NCBI GenBank assembly: GCA_016887505.1
Contig: CP069393.1
Coordinates: 2,007,001 to 2,071,000 of the forward strand
Length of the DNA stretch: 64,000 nt
Reading direction: 5' to 3'
Origin: Clostridia bacterium
Lineage (GTDB): Bacteria; Bacillota; TC1; UBA5767
Made by a program: the position numbers and the translations under genes. A model generated the notes under the pieces. That model did no database searches. It worked only from the letters and a program-made list of their open reading frames with translations, and was not told the DNA's origin. Shown piece after piece: positions 12,987 through 24,830 of this stretch (the stretch's first letter is position 1; each line of letters opens with the position of its first letter).

Positions 12987-14201
12987 CTAGTCGTGTTTAA
13001 GTTGTTTGGCAAAAGGTGCTCTCAGCATTTGTGCTTTGGGCATATTGGACCCAACCAAGGGTCTTGCATAATCCAGAAAGGCATGGGTTACATTGTTTCC
13101 TGATTCGTTAATGTATTCATCCGGCATTAATCTCGTTTTAGCTGCGATTTCTTTTAATTTTACGAGACTATAATCTACTGCGTAGTCGCCTGTGCGGTTA
13201 ATGGTTATTGAACCATCGACGTTGTGCCAAATGGCGAAGTGTGCCGCTTTTTCCCCTACTTCTCTTGCTTCATGCATATCAACATCACTGACACACCCAG
13301 CGAAACTCCGCTGTAGGTAACCGAAGGTATCAGCACGCACCCGACTAACTTTCAGGGTTCTCTTTAAATGGTCTACGACCATGTCGCCTAGCTGACCGCC
13401 AGCTAACTCTACGTTGCCGTGGGCATCGCGTTCAACGCGTTTTCGTAGTGTGCTAGCAATGGGCTGGCCTTGGGCATTGATAATGCCTTCGGACATAGCG
13501 ATGACACAACGACCATATTTTTTATATACGTTTCGAACATCTTGTGTGAAGCGGTCTAAGTCGAATGCACGTTCTGGCATGTAAATTAGGTGTGGACCAT
13601 CATCGGAGAATTTTTTGCCGAGTGCAGCCGATGCAGCTAGAAATCCAGCATGCCGTCCCATAACTACGCCAATATAAATACCACCTAGTGCTCTGGTTTC
13701 AAGATTAGCACCGATGAAGCTTTGGGCTACGAAACGGGCTGCAGAACCATAGCCAGGGGTATGGTCATTGAGAACCAAATCATTGTCTACCGTTTTTGGA
13801 ATGTGGATGGCCCGGAATTCATAGTTCTCTTTATGAGCATAGTCGTTGACTAGGCGCACGGTATCAGATGAGTCGTTGCCGCCGATATAGAAAAAGTAGC
13901 GGACGTTGTGAAGTTTGAGCATCTCAAAAATTTCAGCACAATATTTAAGATCAGGTTTTACCCGAGTGGACAGCAAAGCTGCTGATGGGGTTTTTGCAAC
14001 CAATTCTAGGTTGTGGGTAGTTTCCTGAGTCAGGTCGATGAAATCTTCATTGATGATGCCTTCAACACCTTTAATAGCACCATAAACTCGGCCGACTTGA
14101 TTGAATTTTCTAGATTCCAGAACAGCTCCAACGAGTGATTGGTTTATGACCGCAGTAGGGCCACCTCCTTGTGCAATAACAACGTTACCTTTTAGTTCCA
14201 T
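12987..14201 (-). CDS. pfp: pyrophosphate-type 6-phosphofructokinase
   Basis: A 404-residue enzyme of the PFK family, catalysing fructose-6-phosphate plus phosphoryl donor to fructose-1,6-bisphosphate in glycolysis. The phosphate-binding loop QGGGPTAVIN is at 11-20. Donor specificity is read at two points. GGNDS at 107-111 carries Asp where ATP enzymes have Gly, and PKTVDND at 135-141 carries Lys where ATP enzymes have Gly. Both predict PPi use, which would be reversible and would save ATP, common in fermentative anaerobes. The residue before the diagnostic Asp is Asn instead of the more usual Asp. The start at 14201 has GGAG upstream within an unused upstream ATG. Single-gene unit with its own terminator. 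Confidence 0.92.
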   Translation of the reverse strand: MELKGNVVIAQGGGPTAVINQSLVGAVLESRKFNQVGRVYGAIKGVEGIINEDFIDLTQETTHNLELVAKTPSAALLSTRVKPDLKYCAEIFEMLKLHNVRYFFYIGGNDSSDTVRLVNDYAHKENYEFRAIHIPKTVDNDLVLNDHTPGYGSAARFVAQSFIGANLETRALGGIYIGVVMGRHAGFLAASAALGKKFSDDGPHLIYMPERAFDLDRFTQDVRNVYKKYGRCVIAMSEGIINAQGQPIASTLRKRVERDAHGNVELAGGQLGDMVVDHLKRTLKVSRVRADTFGYLQRSFAGCVSDVDMHEAREVGEKAAHFAIWHNVDGSITINRTGDYAVDYSLVKLKEIAAKTRLMPDEYINESGNNVTHAFLDYARPLVGSNMPKAQMLRAPFAKQLKHD

Positions 14202-14341
14202 TTTCTCCTCCATAATGTTTAATAAATGTTTGGTTGATGTGGAATATTCTTTTTTTTGTTTACCTATTTTCTAATCAGACAATTCATTATACACTAGATG
14301 ATGTAACAGTTGAACAGAGAAAGAATCAGAGGGGGAAGAAC

Positions 14342-17474: not shown

Positions 17475-17933
17475 ATGTCTTTTGAAGCAAAAGCAAAGGA
17501 ACTCGGTATCGAGATTCCAGTGCCAGGTAAACCTACTGCTGCTTATGAACCAGGCGTCTTGATTGATAATTTGGTTTTTGTATCAGGACAGCTTCCTATG
17601 GTAAACGGTGAGCTGCAGTATAAAGGAATCGTGGGCGACGACGTAACGAAGGAAGAAGCATATCAAGGTGCAAGAATTTGTGCCATCAATGCCTTGGGTG
17701 TTGTAAAGAGTATTATCGGTTCTTTGGACAATATTGAGAAGATAGTCAAAGTAGAAGGATTTGTTAACAGTACCCAGGATGTGACCTACCAGCCAGCCTG
17801 CATAAACGGTGCTTCTGATCTTTTGGGAGAACTTTTTGGCGATGTTGGAAAGCATGCTCGTTTTGCTGTTGGAACTAGTGGTTTACCTTTAGGATCTTCT
17901 GTAGAAGTAGGAATGATTGTAAAGGTTAAGTAA
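17475..17933 (+). CDS. RidA/YjgF/YER057c-family protein
   Basis: A 152-residue protein of the RidA superfamily, whose canonical members hydrolyse reactive enamine/imine intermediates released by PLP enzymes. Family features are DNLVFVSGQLPM near 35, GDDVTKEEAYQGARICAINAL near 55 and the closing ARFAVGTSGLPLGSSVEVGM with the conserved Arg. It is longer than the 125-residue core, as in the YjgF-like subgroup, so imine deaminase activity is not certain. It lies upstream of a PLP aminotransferase, SerA and DUF1015, which fits damage control in serine or alanine metabolism, though about 120 bases separate it from them. GGAGGGG precedes the ATG. Confidence 0.85.
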   Translation: MSFEAKAKELGIEIPVPGKPTAAYEPGVLIDNLVFVSGQLPMVNGELQYKGIVGDDVTKEEAYQGARICAINALGVVKSIIGSLDNIEKIVKVEGFVNSTQDVTYQPACINGASDLLGELFGDVGKHARFAVGTSGLPLGSSVEVGMIVKVK

Positions 17934-18052: not shown

Positions 18053-19123
18053 ATGAAGAAAAGACTATTTATACCAGGTCCTGTTGACGTAGCACCTGAC
18101 GTGCTGGCCAGAATGGCTACCCCGATGATAGGACATAGAACCAATGATGCATCTGTATTGCAAAAAAGCATTCATGACAAAATGCAGAAAGTGCTTTACA
18201 CAGAGAACCGCATCATGTTGTCTACTTCCTCAGGTAGTGGATTCATGGAAGGTGCAATTCGTTCTTGCACAAGAAAAAGAGCAGCTGTATTTTCAGTAGG
18301 AGCATTTGGTAACAGATGGTTCAAAATGGCTCAAGCAAATGGTGTGCCAGCAGACAAATTCGAAGTAGAGTGGGGCACTCCGACTCTTCCTGGACAAGTT
18401 GATGAAGTATTGGCTACAGGCAAATATGACCTGATAACTGTGACTCACAATGAAACTTCTACCGGTGTAATGAACCCAGTTGAAGAGATTGCTGAAGTTA
18501 TGAAGAAGTATCCTGACGTTATATGGTGTTTAGATGCAGTTAGTTCTGCAGCAGGATCAAAAATCGAAGTAGACAAGTTGGGTGTTGATATTTGTATAAC
18601 TTCTACCCAAAAAGCATTAGGCCTGCCACCTGGATTGGCTATTTGCTCATTCTCTAAAAAAGCATATGAAGCTACCAAAGAAGTTGAAAACAGAGGCCTG
18701 TATTTCGACATGAAGGAAATCTATGATACTATTGATAAGAAGAATCATCAGTATCCTTCCACTCCATCTTTGTCTCATATGTATGCATTAGACTATCAAT
18801 TGGACAGAATTTTATTAGAAGGCTTAGACAACCGTTTTGCAAGACATATTGAAATGGCCAAGTATGTTAGAGCATGGGCTAACAAATATTTCGAACTGCA
18901 ACCGGAAGAAAAATACGCTTCTAATACTTTGACCAACGTTAAGAATACTAGAGAAATCTCAGTAGCAGAATTGAATAAAGCTTTGGGTATGCGTGGCATG
19001 GTTGTTTCGAATGGCTATGGAAAAATGAAAGATATTACCTTCAGAATTGCGCATATGGCTGAAACTACTTTGCCAGAGATCAAAGATTTGTTGTTGAATA
19101 TCGAAGATATTTTAGGACTATAG
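18053..19123 (+). CDS. class-V aminotransferase (alanine/serine-glyoxylate or phosphoserine type)
   Basis: A 356-residue PLP enzyme of the class V family. The Schiff-base lysine is Lys187 in CITSTQKALGLPPG, with the cofactor Asp161 in CLDAVSSAAG. N-terminal FIPGPVDVAPDVLARM and HNETSTGVMNP are typical of the alanine-glyoxylate/serine-pyruvate group. Related class V enzymes in methanogens (MJ0959) act as phosphoserine aminotransferases. Since serA follows 84 bases downstream and no SerC-type gene is present, transamination of phosphohydroxypyruvate with glutamate or alanine is a good guess, but this is inference from context. AGGAGGG precedes the ATG. Confidence 0.88.
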   Translation: MKKRLFIPGPVDVAPDVLARMATPMIGHRTNDASVLQKSIHDKMQKVLYTENRIMLSTSSGSGFMEGAIRSCTRKRAAVFSVGAFGNRWFKMAQANGVPADKFEVEWGTPTLPGQVDEVLATGKYDLITVTHNETSTGVMNPVEEIAEVMKKYPDVIWCLDAVSSAAGSKIEVDKLGVDICITSTQKALGLPPGLAICSFSKKAYEATKEVENRGLYFDMKEIYDTIDKKNHQYPSTPSLSHMYALDYQLDRILLEGLDNRFARHIEMAKYVRAWANKYFELQPEEKYASNTLTNVKNTREISVAELNKALGMRGMVVSNGYGKMKDITFRIAHMAETTLPEIKDLLLNIEDILGL

Positions 19124-19151
19124 TTGTAAACGAACCATAAATTTTAATCAC

Positions 19152-19187
19152 GGGACTTAGGGCTATTTGGTCCTAAGTTCCCTGTCT
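19152..19187 (+). terminator. intercistronic hairpin, possible partial terminator
   Basis: GGGACTTAGG (19152-19161) pairs with CCTAAGTTCCC (19172-19182) with one bulge, followed by TGTCTTTACT. It sits between the aminotransferase and serA. The short T-run suggests partial termination or transcript stabilisation rather than a full stop. Confidence 0.45.
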
Positions 19188-19207
19188 TTACTAGAGGAGG
19201 GTATACA

Positions 19208-20116
19208 ATGGCTAAGATTTTAGTAACTGATGGTATGGATGCCAAGGCTGCTGCCGCGTTAAGAGAATTAGGACACGAAGTTGTTGAAGAGTTTTATGCA
19301 CCGGAAGTATTGGCTGAGAAAGTAAAAAATGCCGATGCTATGGTTGTGCGTAGTGCTACCAAAGTGCCAGCGGCTATTTTGGACTCAGCAGCTGAGGCGG
19401 GACAACTTAAGGTTGTGATTCGTGCAGGTGTTGGTGTAGATAATATTGACTGTGTACATGCAAAAGAAGTTGGCATTGCGGTTCGCAATACGCCTGCAGC
19501 AAGTTCATCTGCAGTAGCAGAATTGGCTTTGGCTCATATGTTTGCTGTTGCAAGACATATTTCAGCTGCCAACGTAACCATGTGTAATGGAGAGTGGAAC
19601 AAGAAAGCCTATAAGGGCGTTGAATTGTCTGGCAAGACCTTGGGTCTGATTGGCTTCGGCAGAATCGCTAGAAGTTTAGCCGGAAAAGCTAGTGCACTAG
19701 GCATGAAAGTAATCTACACAGATATCGTAGGTAAATTCGAAGGCTACGACGAGTACCAGTACATGGAAAAAGAAGATATCCTGAAAAATGCAGACTTTGT
19801 ATCCTTGCATATTCCTTACATTAAGGAAATGGGCGCGACCATTGCTGCTGATGAGATTGCGATGATGAAGGATGGCTCATATCTAATAAACTGTGCCCGT
19901 GGTGGTGTGGTTGATGAGGCTGCTTTGGTAGATGCTTTGAAATCTGGAAAACTTGCAGGAGCGGCTGTAGACGTGTTCGAAAAAGAACCAACACCGAACG
20001 CTGAGCTGATTAATTTATCGAATGTTTCTTGCACCCCGCATATCGGCGCATCCACTAAGGAAGCACAAGCTAGAATCGGTGAGGAAATTGTTTCCATCAT
20101 CAAAGAATATTTCTAG
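19208..20116 (+). CDS. serA: D-3-phosphoglycerate dehydrogenase, short form
   Basis: A 302-residue NAD-dependent D-2-hydroxyacid dehydrogenase. The Rossmann motif GLIGFGRIA lies at 146-154, and the catalytic triad is Arg231 (NCARGGVVDE), Glu260 (FEKEP) and His278 (TPHIGAST). It would oxidise 3-phosphoglycerate to 3-phosphohydroxypyruvate, the first step of serine synthesis. The C-terminal ACT regulatory domain of long SerA proteins is missing, so feedback inhibition by serine through that domain is not expected. The neighbours (class-V aminotransferase upstream, DUF1015 17 bases downstream) support the serine assignment over other hydroxyacid dehydrogenases. GAGGAGGG precedes the ATG. Confidence 0.88.
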   Translation: MAKILVTDGMDAKAAAALRELGHEVVEEFYAPEVLAEKVKNADAMVVRSATKVPAAILDSAAEAGQLKVVIRAGVGVDNIDCVHAKEVGIAVRNTPAASSSAVAELALAHMFAVARHISAANVTMCNGEWNKKAYKGVELSGKTLGLIGFGRIARSLAGKASALGMKVIYTDIVGKFEGYDEYQYMEKEDILKNADFVSLHIPYIKEMGATIAADEIAMMKDGSYLINCARGGVVDEAALVDALKSGKLAGAAVDVFEKEPTPNAELINLSNVSCTPHIGASTKEAQARIGEEIVSIIKEYF

Positions 20117-20133
20117 GCTACGGAGGAAAGAAA

Positions 20134-21378
20134 ATGTCTTTAGTTAAACCATTTATGGCTGTACGGCCAAAAGAAGGCAAGGAGAGTGCTGTTGCCTCTT
20201 TGCCATACGACGTGATGAACAGAAAAGAAGCAAAAGAGATGGCAGGAGATAATAAAGATTCCTTCCTGCATATCGTTCGTGCTGAGATAGACGTAGATGA
20301 TAGCGTAAGTCAGTATGATGATTCAGTTTATGCCAAAGGTAAAGAAAACTTGGATAAAATGATCTCAGAAGGCATATTGGTGCAGGATGAAAAGCCTTGC
20401 TTTTATGTTTACCAGCAGGTTATGGATGGCAGAACCCAGACTGGTCTAGTTGCTTGTTGCTCCATTGATGAGTATTTAAGTAACAGCATCAAGAAGCATG
20501 AGTTCACCAGAGAAGCCAAAGAAATTGACCGCATCAAACATTTCGATGCTTGTGATGCCAATACGGCACCGATTTTTTTAACCTACCGTAACAACGAAAA
20601 AATCAATGCCATCATAGCTGCATGGGTTAAGAAAGATGCGATGTATGATTTCGTATCGGAAGATGGTATCGGTCATAAGGTTTGGAAAATTGACGACGCA
20701 GATGTAATTGCAGAGTTGGACCAACTGTTCGCTGGCGTGGATAATTTATACATTGCGGATGGACACCATCGTAGCGCTTCTGCTGCTAAAGTAGGTCTAA
20801 AACGGAGAGAAGCCAATCCTAATTACACGGGGGATGAGGAGTTCAATCGCTTTTTGGCGGTAATTTTCCCAGATAACGATCTTTATGTAATGGACTACAA
20901 CCGTGTGGTCAAAGACTTAAATGGCAACAGCAAAGATGAATTTATGTCACTCGTTAAAGAAAAATTCAACGTAGCTGTATCTGACCAAGAAGGTCCATAT
21001 AAACCGGATGCAAAGCATAAATATGGCATGTATCTTGATGGCAAATGGTATGTTTTGGAAGCCAAAGAAGGCTCCTTTGATGCGCAGCATCCAGTTAAGA
21101 GTTTGGATTCTGCAATTCTACAGGATAACCTGTTGAATCCAATTTTGGGTATTGGCGATCCTAGAACCGATGAACGCATCGATTTTATCGGCGGTATTCG
21201 TGGCCTAGAAGAACTTGAACGTCGCGTATCCGAAGATATGGAAGTAGCTTTTTCAATGTTCCCAACTTCCATCAAAGACTTGATGAAGGTTGCTGATGCA
21301 GGAGAGGTTATGCCTCCTAAGTCAACCTGGTTTGAACCCAAGCTACGAAGTGGTTTGTTTGTACATAAATTAAGCTAA
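20134..21378 (+). CDS. DUF1015 family protein
   Basis: A 414-residue protein of the DUF1015 family. It begins FMAVRPKEG and SLPYDVMNRKEA, contains HEFTREAKEIDRIKH, and has the family's central motif ADGHHRSASA with Asp209, Gly210, His211, His212, Arg213. It ends with IDFIGGIRGLEELERRV. Biochemical function is not established. The DGHHR motif resembles the catalytic motif of ParB-like serine kinases (SbnI, SerK), an inference from motif likeness only. It is 17 bases behind serA and ends at a strong terminator, so it belongs to the serine operon. It could carry out a missing phosphoserine or serine step or act as a regulator. Confidence 0.85.
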   Translation: MSLVKPFMAVRPKEGKESAVASLPYDVMNRKEAKEMAGDNKDSFLHIVRAEIDVDDSVSQYDDSVYAKGKENLDKMISEGILVQDEKPCFYVYQQVMDGRTQTGLVACCSIDEYLSNSIKKHEFTREAKEIDRIKHFDACDANTAPIFLTYRNNEKINAIIAAWVKKDAMYDFVSEDGIGHKVWKIDDADVIAELDQLFAGVDNLYIADGHHRSASAAKVGLKRREANPNYTGDEEFNRFLAVIFPDNDLYVMDYNRVVKDLNGNSKDEFMSLVKEKFNVAVSDQEGPYKPDAKHKYGMYLDGKWYVLEAKEGSFDAQHPVKSLDSAILQDNLLNPILGIGDPRTDERIDFIGGIRGLEELERRVSEDMEVAFSMFPTSIKDLMKVADAGEVMPPKSTWFEPKLRSGLFVHKLS

Positions 21379-21391
21379 GAGTAGTTTACCT

Positions 21392-21424
21392 AAGCCCATG
21401 GATGAAAATCCATGGGCTTTTTTG
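21392..21424 (+). terminator. terminator of the serine operon
   Basis: A 12-bp perfect stem (AAGCCCATGGAT, loop GAAA, ATCCATGGGCTT) followed by TTTTTT. Placed 14 bases after the DUF1015 stop. Confidence 0.93.
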
Positions 21425-21795: not shown

Positions 21796-22467
21796 ATGTC
21801 CAAACGAGTTCTTTATGCGGATGATGAACCGAGATTTAGAAAGCTCGTGAAAGATTATTTAACAAAGGAAGGATTCACTGTCACGGATGTGAAAGACGGG
21901 AAAGAAGCACTGGAGGCTCTTACGTATCAGTCCTTTGATTTGGTAATTCTAGATGTGATGATGCCAGGTTATGATGGTTGGGCGGTATTGAGGGAAATTC
22001 GCAAGACCATGACTATGCCAGTCATTATGCTGACAGCTAGAGATGAAGAAAGTGATGAATTGTTCGGCTTCGAACTGGGTGCGGATGAGTATGTTGCCAA
22101 ACCCTTCAGCCCGAAAGTTTTGGTGGCTAGAATCCAAAGTCTCTTAAAACGGGGCAAGGACCGGATGTCTGAGCATTTGGAGTATGCGGGCATTCGACTA
22201 GATCGAGATTCTCATAGAGTTTTCTTACATGATACGGAATTGGTTATGAGCCCGAAGGAATATGACCTGTTGGCGTTTTTTATGGAGAATGTGAACATAG
22301 CGATCAGCCGGGAACGACTTTTGGATGTAGTTTGGGGCTATGATTATTATGGAGATTTACGTACAGTAGATACTCATATTAAACGATTGCGTAGCAAACT
22401 TGATGATAAGAGTATGCTGATTCAGACCGTACGTGGGGTGGGATATAGATTTGGAGAAAACAATTAA
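21796..22467 (+). CDS. OmpR/PhoB-family response regulator
   Basis: A 223-residue two-component regulator. The receiver domain (1-118) has the acidic pair Asp9-Asp10, the phosphoacceptor Asp53 in VILDVMMPG, and Lys102 in AKPF. The winged-helix DNA-binding domain is at about 130-222 (MSPKEYDLLAFFMENVNIAI; RTVDTHIKRLRSKL). Its cognate kinase gene overlaps its 3' end. The tandem-repeat exported protein that follows the kinase may be a target or accessory component. The input signal is not known. Confidence 0.93.
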   Translation: MSKRVLYADDEPRFRKLVKDYLTKEGFTVTDVKDGKEALEALTYQSFDLVILDVMMPGYDGWAVLREIRKTMTMPVIMLTARDEESDELFGFELGADEYVAKPFSPKVLVARIQSLLKRGKDRMSEHLEYAGIRLDRDSHRVFLHDTELVMSPKEYDLLAFFMENVNIAISRERLLDVVWGYDYYGDLRTVDTHIKRLRSKLDDKSMLIQTVRGVGYRFGENN

Positions 22468-23965
22468 AAAAAATACCAAAAAGAAATCCTCACTAGCGCA
22501 TAAGCTACTCTTTTCCATGTTGCTAGTGGTGATAATCAGCACCGTAGCATCTTTTGCGATGAACAGGATTCTACTAGGGCCATATTACTATTATCAACAG
22601 TCGAGAATTTTAAACAATACGGCGAATCAAGTTGACGAACTCTATACTGGCGTCCTGAATGAAGATATCGTCCGAGAGTTGAATACCATGGGATATGGCA
22701 TCAATGGCATGATTCTAATTTACAATCAGGACAACGAGGTCTTGTATAGTTCTCGAGCTTTCCAAGGTCAGTTTTTTAGCGTGACCGAAGATGAACTAGG
22801 TGCTGGAAAGAAAAATTTGCTACTGGATGGCACACGCATCGGATTTCGCGCTCCAAGTCAGAACAAGGCGCCGGTATCTCCTTGGAAGGATCCTCTCATA
22901 ACCGTTGAGAAGGAGTTGAAAAATGGCGATCATTTGATTATTCAAACATCGGAGACCGCCTTGGAAGCGTCTGTGGGAATCATTAATCAATTTACCCTAT
23001 ATCCTGCAAGTGTTGCTTTAATAGCTGCCATTGTGCTTGCGTTTTTTTTGACTAAAAAAATTACTAGGCCTGTCGTGGAATTAACGGAAATAACCAAGCG
23101 GATGAAGAGCTTAGATTTTAGTAGCCGCTATGAGGGAGAGGCGGACGACGAAATTGGAGAATTGGGCCAAAATTTTAATGACTTAGCAGAAACATTGGGC
23201 ATAACCATTGGAGAATTGAACCAGGCCAACGACCAATTGCGTGAAGATATTGAACGTGAAAAAGCAATTGAAGAAGCTCGTAAAAATTTTATTTCTAATG
23301 TATCTCACGAATTAAAGACACCGATATCCTTGATTCGGGGCTATGCAGAGGGGATTCGTGACCAGGTAATAGAACCACAGGATTTTGAAGAGTATTTATC
23401 GGTCATCATTGAAGAAAGTGAGCACATGTCGTCCATGGTGCGTGAATTATTGACATTGAGCAAATTAGAATCGCATCATATACCAACCTATTTTGAAGAA
23501 GTAGATGTAACGGAAATAATCAATAGAGTGATTGAGATGTTTTCCTTTGAAATGCATAAGGAAGGAATCAAAATGGTTTATGAGGCACCTAGTGAACCGA
23601 AGATGCTCGTATGTGATCAAAATATGCTTGAAACAATGCTTACCAATTTTATGAGCAATGCACTAGATCATGTAGAGGGTGAAAAAATTATTGAGATTCG
23701 TCTGGAAGAAACCCTAGAGAGTTTGGGTATACATGTCCGAAATTCAGGAAAAACTATCGTAAAAGAAGACCAAGATAAGATCTGGGATAGTTTTTATAAG
23801 ATTGATAAAGCACGAACCAGAGCCTATGGGGGAACTGGATTGGGTCTTGCGATTGTGAAGAATATGGTGGAAATACATAAAGGGACCTATGGTGTTGAAA
23901 ATTGGGAAGATGGTGTAGATTTTTATATCCGCTTACCCAAGGACAACAAGGTGAGCGAGAAATAG
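22433..23965 (+). CDS. sensor histidine kinase
   Basis: A membrane sensor kinase of up to 510 residues. Membrane helices lie at about 23-47 and 188-208, flanking an extracytoplasmic domain of about 140 residues. HAMP is at about 208-262, HisKA has the phosphoacceptor His292 in NVSHELKTP, and the ATPase domain shows NFMSNALDHV (N box) and GGTGLGLAIVKNMV (G box). The first start in frame is GTG at 22433, overlapping the regulator by 35 bases; TTG at 22451 is an alternative after a GGGGTGGG stretch. The tight coupling to the response regulator leaves little doubt that they form a pair. Confidence 0.92.
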   Translation: MGWDIDLEKTIKKNTKKKSSLAHKLLFSMLLVVIISTVASFAMNRILLGPYYYYQQSRILNNTANQVDELYTGVLNEDIVRELNTMGYGINGMILIYNQDNEVLYSSRAFQGQFFSVTEDELGAGKKNLLLDGTRIGFRAPSQNKAPVSPWKDPLITVEKELKNGDHLIIQTSETALEASVGIINQFTLYPASVALIAAIVLAFFLTKKITRPVVELTEITKRMKSLDFSSRYEGEADDEIGELGQNFNDLAETLGITIGELNQANDQLREDIEREKAIEEARKNFISNVSHELKTPISLIRGYAEGIRDQVIEPQDFEEYLSVIIEESEHMSSMVRELLTLSKLESHHIPTYFEEVDVTEIINRVIEMFSFEMHKEGIKMVYEAPSEPKMLVCDQNMLETMLTNFMSNALDHVEGEKIIEIRLEETLESLGIHVRNSGKTIVKEDQDKIWDSFYKIDKARTRAYGGTGLGLAIVKNMVEIHKGTYGVENWEDGVDFYIRLPKDNKVSEK

Positions 23966-24059: not shown

Positions 24060-24830
24060 TTGAAAAAATTAATTGTATCTGTACTGATGATCTCCCTGCT
24101 AATGGTGGCGTTGCCGGTAATGGCAGCGGAAACGGAGGCTACTCAAACCGAGGGGTATGCACGAACAATGGGTACTCGTGAAGTAAATGGCTTATTTGGC
24201 CATAAAGGTGGAATGAGGGACAAGGATTTTGAACCCGATTTTGATGCCTTCTCTGAACGATTGGCGCAAGCGGTAGAAGATGGAAACTTGACCCAAGAAG
24301 AAGCTGATGAAAGATTGGAAAAGATGGAAGCAAATGAGTTTCCAATCGGTGTTCGCGATAGAGACAGACTTGCAGAACGTGACCCAGAACTGATTGCGGA
24401 ACATATCGCGCAAGCGGTAGAAGATGGAAACTTGACCCAAGATGAAGCAGATGAAATGTTGGAGAAGTTGGAAGCAAATGAGTTCCCAATTGGCGTTCAA
24501 GATAGAGACAGACTTGCAGAACGCGACCCAGAACTGATTGCGGAACATATCGCGCAAGCGGTAGAAGACGGAAAATTGACCCAAGATGAAGCAGATGAAA
24601 TGTTGGAGAAGTTGGAAGCAAATGAGTTTCCAATCGGTGTTCAAGATAGAGACAGACTTGCAGAACGTGACCCAGAACTGATGGAAGAACATATCGCGCA
24701 AGCGGTAGAAGACGGAACAATGACCCAAGATGAAGCAGATGAAATGTTAGAACGTCTGGAGCAGGGCATTCCTCAACGAGGCGCACATGGCAATCGGGGC
24801 ATGAATTGCAGTGAAGAAACAGACGAGTAA
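24060..24830 (+). CDS. exported protein of four 48-residue tandem repeats
   Basis: A 256-residue secreted protein. It starts at TTG, with AAAGGAG about 8 bases upstream. Residues 1-22 form a signal peptide (LMVALPVMA-AET). After a short linker come four tandem units of 48 residues; each holds QAVEDGNLTQDEADEMLEKL, then a spacer EANEFPIGVQDRDRLAERDP. The helix-loop-helix unit resembles DUF2680-type segments found in small exported Gram-positive proteins, and the Asp/Glu-rich loop could bind cations. No lipobox or anchor is visible, so it should be released or wall-associated. The gene starts 94 bases after the kinase, so coupling to that two-component system is plausible. Function is unknown. 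Confidence 0.8.
   Translation: MKKLIVSVLMISLLMVALPVMAAETEATQTEGYARTMGTREVNGLFGHKGGMRDKDFEPDFDAFSERLAQAVEDGNLTQEEADERLEKMEANEFPIGVRDRDRLAERDPELIAEHIAQAVEDGNLTQDEADEMLEKLEANEFPIGVQDRDRLAERDPELIAEHIAQAVEDGKLTQDEADEMLEKLEANEFPIGVQDRDRLAERDPELMEEHIAQAVEDGTMTQDEADEMLERLEQGIPQRGAHGNRGMNCSEETDE
24264..24765 (+). repeat. 144-bp direct tandem repeat, four copies (last incomplete)
   Basis: The sequence GCGCAAGCGGTAGAAG recurs at 24264, 24408, 24552 and 24696, exactly 144 bases apart. Copies two and three are nearly identical over their full length; copy one and the final partial copy differ at scattered bases. The period is 48 codons, so the reading frame is kept. The near-identity at DNA level suggests recent duplication or gene conversion. 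Confidence 0.95.

Follow-up and report, generated by a model that had tools for sequence, protein, structure and literature searches.

A three-gene operon in the genome of a Clostridia bacterium (assembly GCA_016887505.1) raises the question of how serine synthesis is completed where no canonical phosphoserine phosphatase is encoded. The operon occupies positions 18053 to 21378 of a 64,000-nucleotide stretch of contig CP069393.1 (positions 2,007,001 to 2,071,000 of the forward strand; here called the window) and encodes a class-V aminotransferase, a SerA-like dehydrogenase, and a DUF1015 protein, a family whose function was not known before. Serine synthesis in many Firmicutes and Bacteroidales is a published open question. 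In the passages available from the respective papers, 450 gut genomes are described that carry SerA and SerC but none of the four known phosphatase types (PMC9026213), Dehalobacter grows without serine yet has no phosphatase gene (PMC4751268), the same gap is reported for Roseburia (PMC7478625) and stated for Desulfovibrio (PMC5764234), and serine synthesis in C. perfringens and E. faecalis is described as unexplained (PMC7311316). In the open-access literature, two papers mention the family under the name DUF1015, and none was found that links it to serine. Our analysis indicates that DUF1015 very probably acts at the serine/O-phosphoserine node, and we favor, with some reservation, the reading that it runs from phosphoserine to serine and thereby finishes serine synthesis in operons of this type.

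Operon organization and predicted fold of DUF1015

The gene trio proposed in the first-pass annotation of this DNA is real: three open reading frames (ORFs) follow one another head to tail on the forward strand, encoding the aminotransferase (18053..19123, 356 amino acids), the short-form SerA-like D-3-phosphoglycerate dehydrogenase (19208..20116, 302 amino acids), and DUF1015 (20134..21378, 414 amino acids), with intergenic gaps of 84 and 17 bases. The first two proteins match PF00266 (Aminotran_5, E 1.8e-22) and PF02826 (2-Hacid_dh_C, E 6.5e-57), respectively. Similarity and context make their annotation as phosphoserine aminotransferase and SerA likely, but both stay below the curated NCBIfam cut-offs. 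The dehydrogenase, which is short, scores 305.6 bits with the PGDH model (TIGR01327; cut-off 454), and no ACT or other regulatory domain was reported for it in Pfam and NCBIfam scans. For the aminotransferase, the nearest models are BhcA, PhnW, and serC_3, all under their cut-offs (serC_3, 63.9 bits versus 401.65), and it is closer to the BhcA and PhnW models than to SerC1. Judged by its sequence, it is a probable phosphoserine aminotransferase of a non-SerC1 type. The third protein, present as a single gene copy in this genome, scores 399.9 bits with PF06245 (E 8.8e-120; gathering score 25.8). DUF1015 is the only Pfam family matched at E ≤ 0.001, so that neither a HAD or histidine-phosphatase domain nor PF02195 (ParBc) was found at this threshold.

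An AlphaFold model of DUF1015, built from an alignment of 54 sequences from the window and related loci, reached a mean predicted local distance difference test (pLDDT) of 96.1 and a predicted template modeling score (pTM) of 0.91. At E ≤ 0.001, Foldseek returned nine PDB matches, every one of them a free serine kinase: SerK from Thermococcus, the counterpart of SerK from Pyrococcus, and SbnI in three structures (E 3.9e-8 to 2.9e-5). Structural alignments (VIA-align) gave Z 11.3-13.0 over 213-226 residues with a root mean square deviation of 4.0-6.2, and the next-best folds were sulfiredoxin (Srx, Z 5.3) and the ParB domain (Z 3.6). Model residues 97-414 fall on SerK 8-239 and residues 89-414 on SbnI 1-217. 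Since the match runs from about residue 89 to the end, it includes the C-terminal domain of SerK as well, beyond the ParB-like part. The first-pass annotation had named SbnI and SerK as the structures to compare; the model shares their fold over the whole SerK chain rather than adopting an unrelated one, and we regard this predicted fold as well supported. Residues 1 to ~88 form an extra N-terminal part, and for the N-terminal 114 residues even the best PDB match (E 0.24) is not convincing, this part not having been folded alone. A viral origin of DUF1015 was considered and rejected, with no BFVD match at E ≤ 0.001; one viral contig (L181) carries a relative.

The relation to SerK is also seen at the level of sequence profiles. 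Profile A1, made from 36 diverse members, matched only SerK entries in the PDB (1vk1, E 1.8e-5; 5x0b, E 7.8e-4; others, ~8e-4), and in the HMMER alignment the DGHHR motif and the C-terminal PKST/PKTT are collinear. DGHHR (residues 209-213, 20758..20772, forward strand), the phosphate-binding motif of the ParB/SerK fold, aligns with DGHHR of SerK, which bears out its resemblance to serine kinases noticed in the first-pass annotation. Asp209, Gly210, and His212 are invariant in all 36 aligned relatives, and the whole motif is kept in 35. Further residues invariant in this set include Asp26, Glu123, Thr125, Arg257, Pro394, Lys396, and Phe400. Lys396 (21319..21321, forward strand) lies in PPKST and is the HMMER-aligned counterpart of the lysine in the SerK PKTT motif. 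Glu123 (20500..20502, forward strand) is invariant in the 54-sequence alignment as well (54/54). It is the proposed counterpart of Glu30, the catalytic glutamate of SerK; E30 mutants are named in PDB titles of the matched structures. This equivalence is suggested by the order along the chain rather than by residue-by-residue alignment, an attempt to align the two with the domain profile A6 having given no match. Glu123, DGHHR, and Lys396 are kept in all 30 Bacteroidales proteins inspected, and in 28 of these the C-terminal motif is KTT, the SerK form. Conservation of the Glu, of DGHHR, and of the Lys suggests that the chemistry of SerK has been retained in DUF1015. In a third DUF1015 group (L091-L094, L097), the aligned member L094 has DGNHS instead of DGHHR; this group may differ in function.

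Genomic linkage and serine T-boxes in relatives

We analyzed the gene neighborhoods of DUF1015 in two sets, 81 named loci and a clade-A phylum sample. Of 61 loci scanned, 27 have a 2-hydroxyacid dehydrogenase as the same-strand neighbor directly 5' of DUF1015, and of 55 genes two positions 5' of DUF1015, 24 encode a class-V aminotransferase. Among these 55 genes, 24 match serC_1 (best E 4e-166), so that in other loci the partner is clearly SerC. Directly 3' of DUF1015, a 2-hydroxyacid dehydrogenase was found in 3 of 49 cases (six of 55 such genes left out). Loci with 2.4 kb or more of upstream sequence were searched uniformly, to a distance of 3.5 kb on the strand of DUF1015; SerA or the aminotransferase was found in 36 of 69 named loci (both in 32) and in 28 of 41 clade-A phylum loci (both in 20). 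Records titled Bacteroidales, Elusimicrobiales, Acidobacteriota, Phycisphaeraceae, Gemmatimonadetes, and Enterococcus are among the linked loci, and because the linkage recurs in several phyla it is not due to chance. Furthermore, 19 phylum-sample genomes encode SerC1 together with a clade-A DUF1015 (E ≤ 1e-105), and going by the place lists, the two genes share a strand and lie within ~3.1 kb in 12 of them. A second DUF1015 group, ~27% identical, is mostly not found beside these genes.

DUF1015 is often encoded without SerA alongside, and in eight loci (L230, L232, L233, L234, L236, L239, L240, and L248) the aminotransferase adjoins it in the absence of SerA. Such pairs point to phosphoserine, the product of the aminotransferase, as the common metabolite. 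In a passage on Porphyromonas (PMC11316588), serC, an NAD(P)-binding protein, and DUF1015 appear as adjacent genes and are given no interpretation there. We consider the link of DUF1015 to the serine pathway well supported. The first-pass proposal, that DUF1015 may interconvert serine and phosphoserine or control the flux, is supported in part.

Evidence on the direction of the reaction came from leader sequences. Rfam T-box leaders stand directly 5' of the aminotransferase in three of 22 distinct loci scanned (L102, L103, and L109), and a fourth T-box, in L117, lies on the opposite strand. Of 49 aminotransferase-SerA-DUF1015 loci, 10 carry the T-box antiterminator motif no more than 600 bases 5' of the aminotransferase; elsewhere on the DUF1015 strand of 130 loci (1.28 million bases) the motif is absent. 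In the seven further loci, preselected by this motif, Rfam detected a T-box in every case, at 79.6-87.2 bits and thus below the gathering score (93). In all ten T-box loci the specifier, read as the triplet directly 5' of the purine in front of the closing stem, is the serine codon UCC, as judged from Rfam alignments, sequence, and a script; for L109, which the script misread, UCC comes from the Rfam alignment, and for L241 from the script only. SerA and DUF1015 are at most 203 bases apart in all ten.

A T-box turns on its operon in response to the uncharged form of the matching tRNA. With a serine specifier, these operons should therefore be induced under serine shortage, which argues for the direction from phosphoserine to serine and against a serine-consuming kinase. 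The T-boxes of the relatives thus support a tie between DUF1015 and serine synthesis. Seven loci (L222, L223, L229, L231, L237, L238, and L241) carry a second antiterminator motif ~100-150 bases past the first, 5' of serC, where Rfam gives one T-box per locus; perhaps this is a duplicated antiterminator part forming a two-step switch. A glycine riboswitch was also considered and rejected; a passage of a 2007 paper places one before COG4198 (DUF1015) genes in Firmicutes (PMC2211319). None was found in the 46 loci scanned, 11 of which are short loci with little upstream sequence.

Phosphoserine phosphatases and the direction of the reaction

In the favored reading, SerA would oxidize 3-phosphoglycerate, the aminotransferase would make O-phosphoserine, and DUF1015 would take off the phosphate to yield serine. 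We regard this enzyme activity as a strong prediction. Phosphoserine may bind in the cleft between the ParB-like domain (residues ~90-225) and the C-terminal domain, with its phosphate held by DGHHR and Lys396/Thr398, while Glu123 would act on the serine oxygen as Glu30 does in SerK. The phosphate could pass to water, which seems most feasible, to inorganic phosphate (Pi), or to a bound nucleotide. Pi as the acceptor, giving pyrophosphate (PPi), would be near equilibrium in a PPi-using anaerobe. A more speculative extension, to which we give little credence at present, is that DUF1015 represents a further non-homologous phosphoserine-dephosphorylating enzyme, a serine-kinase fold working in reverse in most Bacteroidales and many Clostridia, that may save the phosphate bond energy (e.g., as PPi from Pi) rather than lose it to water.

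The first-pass annotation had stated that no phosphoserine phosphatase is present. For the canonical enzyme, this holds beyond the operon: the genome, a single contig of 2.56 Mb, encodes no SerB (TIGR00338) over the cut-off, and the strongest of its 12 matches reaches 35.5 bits versus 144, with a model that in a control also misses B. subtilis over the cut-off. The statement does not extend to phosphatases of every kind, since other families are present. Five HAD proteins behind the SerB matches were scanned, and none passes a phosphoserine phosphatase model; one passes the HAD-IB family TIGR01490 and the others only general HAD families. Four stretches of the genome match the histidine-phosphatase family. 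In the phylum sample of 348 genomes, SerB exceeds the cut-off in one and matches at E ≤ 1e-15 in 22, and DUF1015 is present in 174. Among 198 Bacteroidales genomes, 192 have DUF1015 and 44 have SerB over the cut-off (both, 43; DUF1015 only, 149; SerB only, 1; neither, 5). Fifty hand-chosen DUF1015 genomes of the named loci include one with SerB over the cut-off and eight with a match at E ≤ 1e-10. We did not accept the absence of SerB as proof, because weak SerB matches do not avoid DUF1015 (11 of 22 co-occur with it) and the B. subtilis control was missed.

Several points weigh against a phosphoserine-to-serine role. Two profiles, A2 for clade A and A6 for the domain, gave no PDB match. Neither the window operon nor those of its order-mates carry a T-box, so the argument on direction rests on other relatives. 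Within the phylum sample, 36 of 102 SerC1 genomes lack DUF1015, a weak SerB match being present in three of the 36, which means that at least one alternative route exists in the phylum. SerC1 and DUF1015 occur together more often than expected, but the effect is modest, with DUF1015 in 66 of 102 SerC1 genomes versus 108 of the 246 remaining ones (Fisher P 0.0006, with no correction for descent). Moreover, SerB and DUF1015 coexist in the 43 Bacteroidales, so DUF1015 is not simply a substitute, and the motif residues are intact in all 13 SerB-bearing Bacteroidales among the 30 inspected. With phosphoserine as the donor, phosphate transfer onto ADP or AMP is strongly unfavorable (uphill by ~20 kJ/mol), making water the most feasible acceptor. 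Finally, SerK itself works as an ADP-dependent kinase, for which its authors propose a role in serine assimilation (PMC5120207).

Some of these points count for the main rival, in which DUF1015 phosphorylates serine as SerK does, SerA and the aminotransferase run in reverse to carry it on to 3-phosphoglycerate, and serine is made by an unrelated HAD or histidine phosphatase. The known activity and proposed role of SerK, the downhill course of the kinase reaction, and the joint occurrence with SerB all agree with it, and the HAD-IB or histidine-phosphatase family proteins of this genome could indeed act on phosphoserine. Nonetheless, ten operons behind serine-specifier T-boxes, expected to be switched on when serine is short, and the canonical SerC partner in many loci speak against this direction, and we consider it unlikely, though deserving serious attention.

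We think it distinctly improbable that DUF1015 instead regulates SerA, the aminotransferase, or the operon, using its SerK-like fold to bind a nucleotide together with serine or phosphoserine. The lack of a reported regulatory domain in the short SerA and the coexistence with SerB in some genomes would suit such a role, and passages of a survey of ParB-fold proteins describe some that bind nucleotides without known catalysis (PMC12704722). Against it stand the full conservation of the putative catalytic Glu and Lys, the near-complete conservation of DGHHR, and the frequent occurrence of DUF1015 away from SerA. Production of phosphoserine for cysteine synthesis, the role of SerK in Thermococcus, is very hard to reconcile with the adjoining aminotransferase, which would already make phosphoserine, with a T-box specifier for serine rather than cysteine, and with a CysE over the cut-off in this genome, by which serine itself is needed for cysteine. 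Equally far-fetched is an action on another hydroxy compound of a non-phosphorylated route, e.g., as a glycerate kinase, which the proximity of the window aminotransferase to the BhcA and PhnW models would allow but which the exclusive fold match to serine kinases, the canonical SerC partners, and the serine T-boxes contradict.

Operon surroundings, significance, and known systems

A RidA/YjgF-type protein is encoded 119 bases 5' of the aminotransferase gene (17475..17933, forward strand) and is a possible fourth operon member; the match list shows close relatives of it in all seven order-mate loci that have enough upstream sequence (L242, L244, L246, L250, L253, L254, and L256). Pattern scans found a 13-pair hairpin with a weak T tail between the aminotransferase and SerA genes (19152..19181, forward strand), possibly an attenuator or processing site although the scan is no functional evidence for it, and a terminator-like hairpin of 12 pairs with a T run 13 bases past the DUF1015 stop codon (21392..21419, forward strand). 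A PPi-type phosphofructokinase (12987-14213, reverse strand; NF010675, 475 bits) is encoded nearby and also at the loci of the three nearest relatives (L246, L250, and L253). We rejected a PPi link between it and DUF1015, as it is positional only, the gene lies outside the operon, and SerK does not use PPi. Downstream, after a response regulator and a histidine-kinase-like ORF (21796-23965), a small acidic protein contains a 144-base repeat array (24264-24748, 3.4 copies, 93% match).

Its predicted free-serine-kinase fold and, in some relatives, its place under a switch that responds to serine shortage make DUF1015 a good candidate for the final step of serine synthesis, which has yet to be identified in many anaerobic bacteria. 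The passages of the 2025 PNAS survey of ParB folds that mention it, as "DU1015" among chosen fusions, give neither a function nor a result for it (PMC12704722). The new element here is the use of serine-specifier T-boxes before aminotransferase-SerA-DUF1015 operons as evidence on direction. If the favored reading is true, the gap described in passages on the gut genomes would be filled (PMC9026213), and serine auxotrophies predicted in gut-community models would be corrected.

Among known systems, ParB-CTPase fold proteins show a weak fold relation to DUF1015 (Z 3.6), which lacks a PF02195 match. The HAD-type SerB and its displacements SerB2, SerB3, and SerB4 resemble DUF1015 in their position, as some other bacteria have a phosphatase gene as the third one in their serC-serA operons according to passages of PMC9026213; unlike these enzymes, DUF1015 has no HAD or histidine-phosphatase domain. 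SbnI, the serine kinase of staphyloferrin B synthesis, a siderophore pathway, shares the fold (PDB 5uje, 6nr6, and 5ujd; Z 11.6-12.3) but is 10-16% identical and lacks the N-terminal extension. The closest likeness is to SerK of T. kodakarensis and PF0380 of P. furiosus (PDB 5x0b and 1vk1), in the whole-chain fold, the DGHHR motif, and PKTT/PKST near the C terminus. SerK phosphorylates serine from ADP and not from ATP or PPi, and in Desulfurococcales serK likewise lies near serA and an aminotransferase gene (PMC5120207). DUF1015 differs from SerK in being ~15-18% identical, in its extra N-terminal part of ~88 residues, and in being a bacterial protein that in some Bacillota stands under the control of serine T-boxes.

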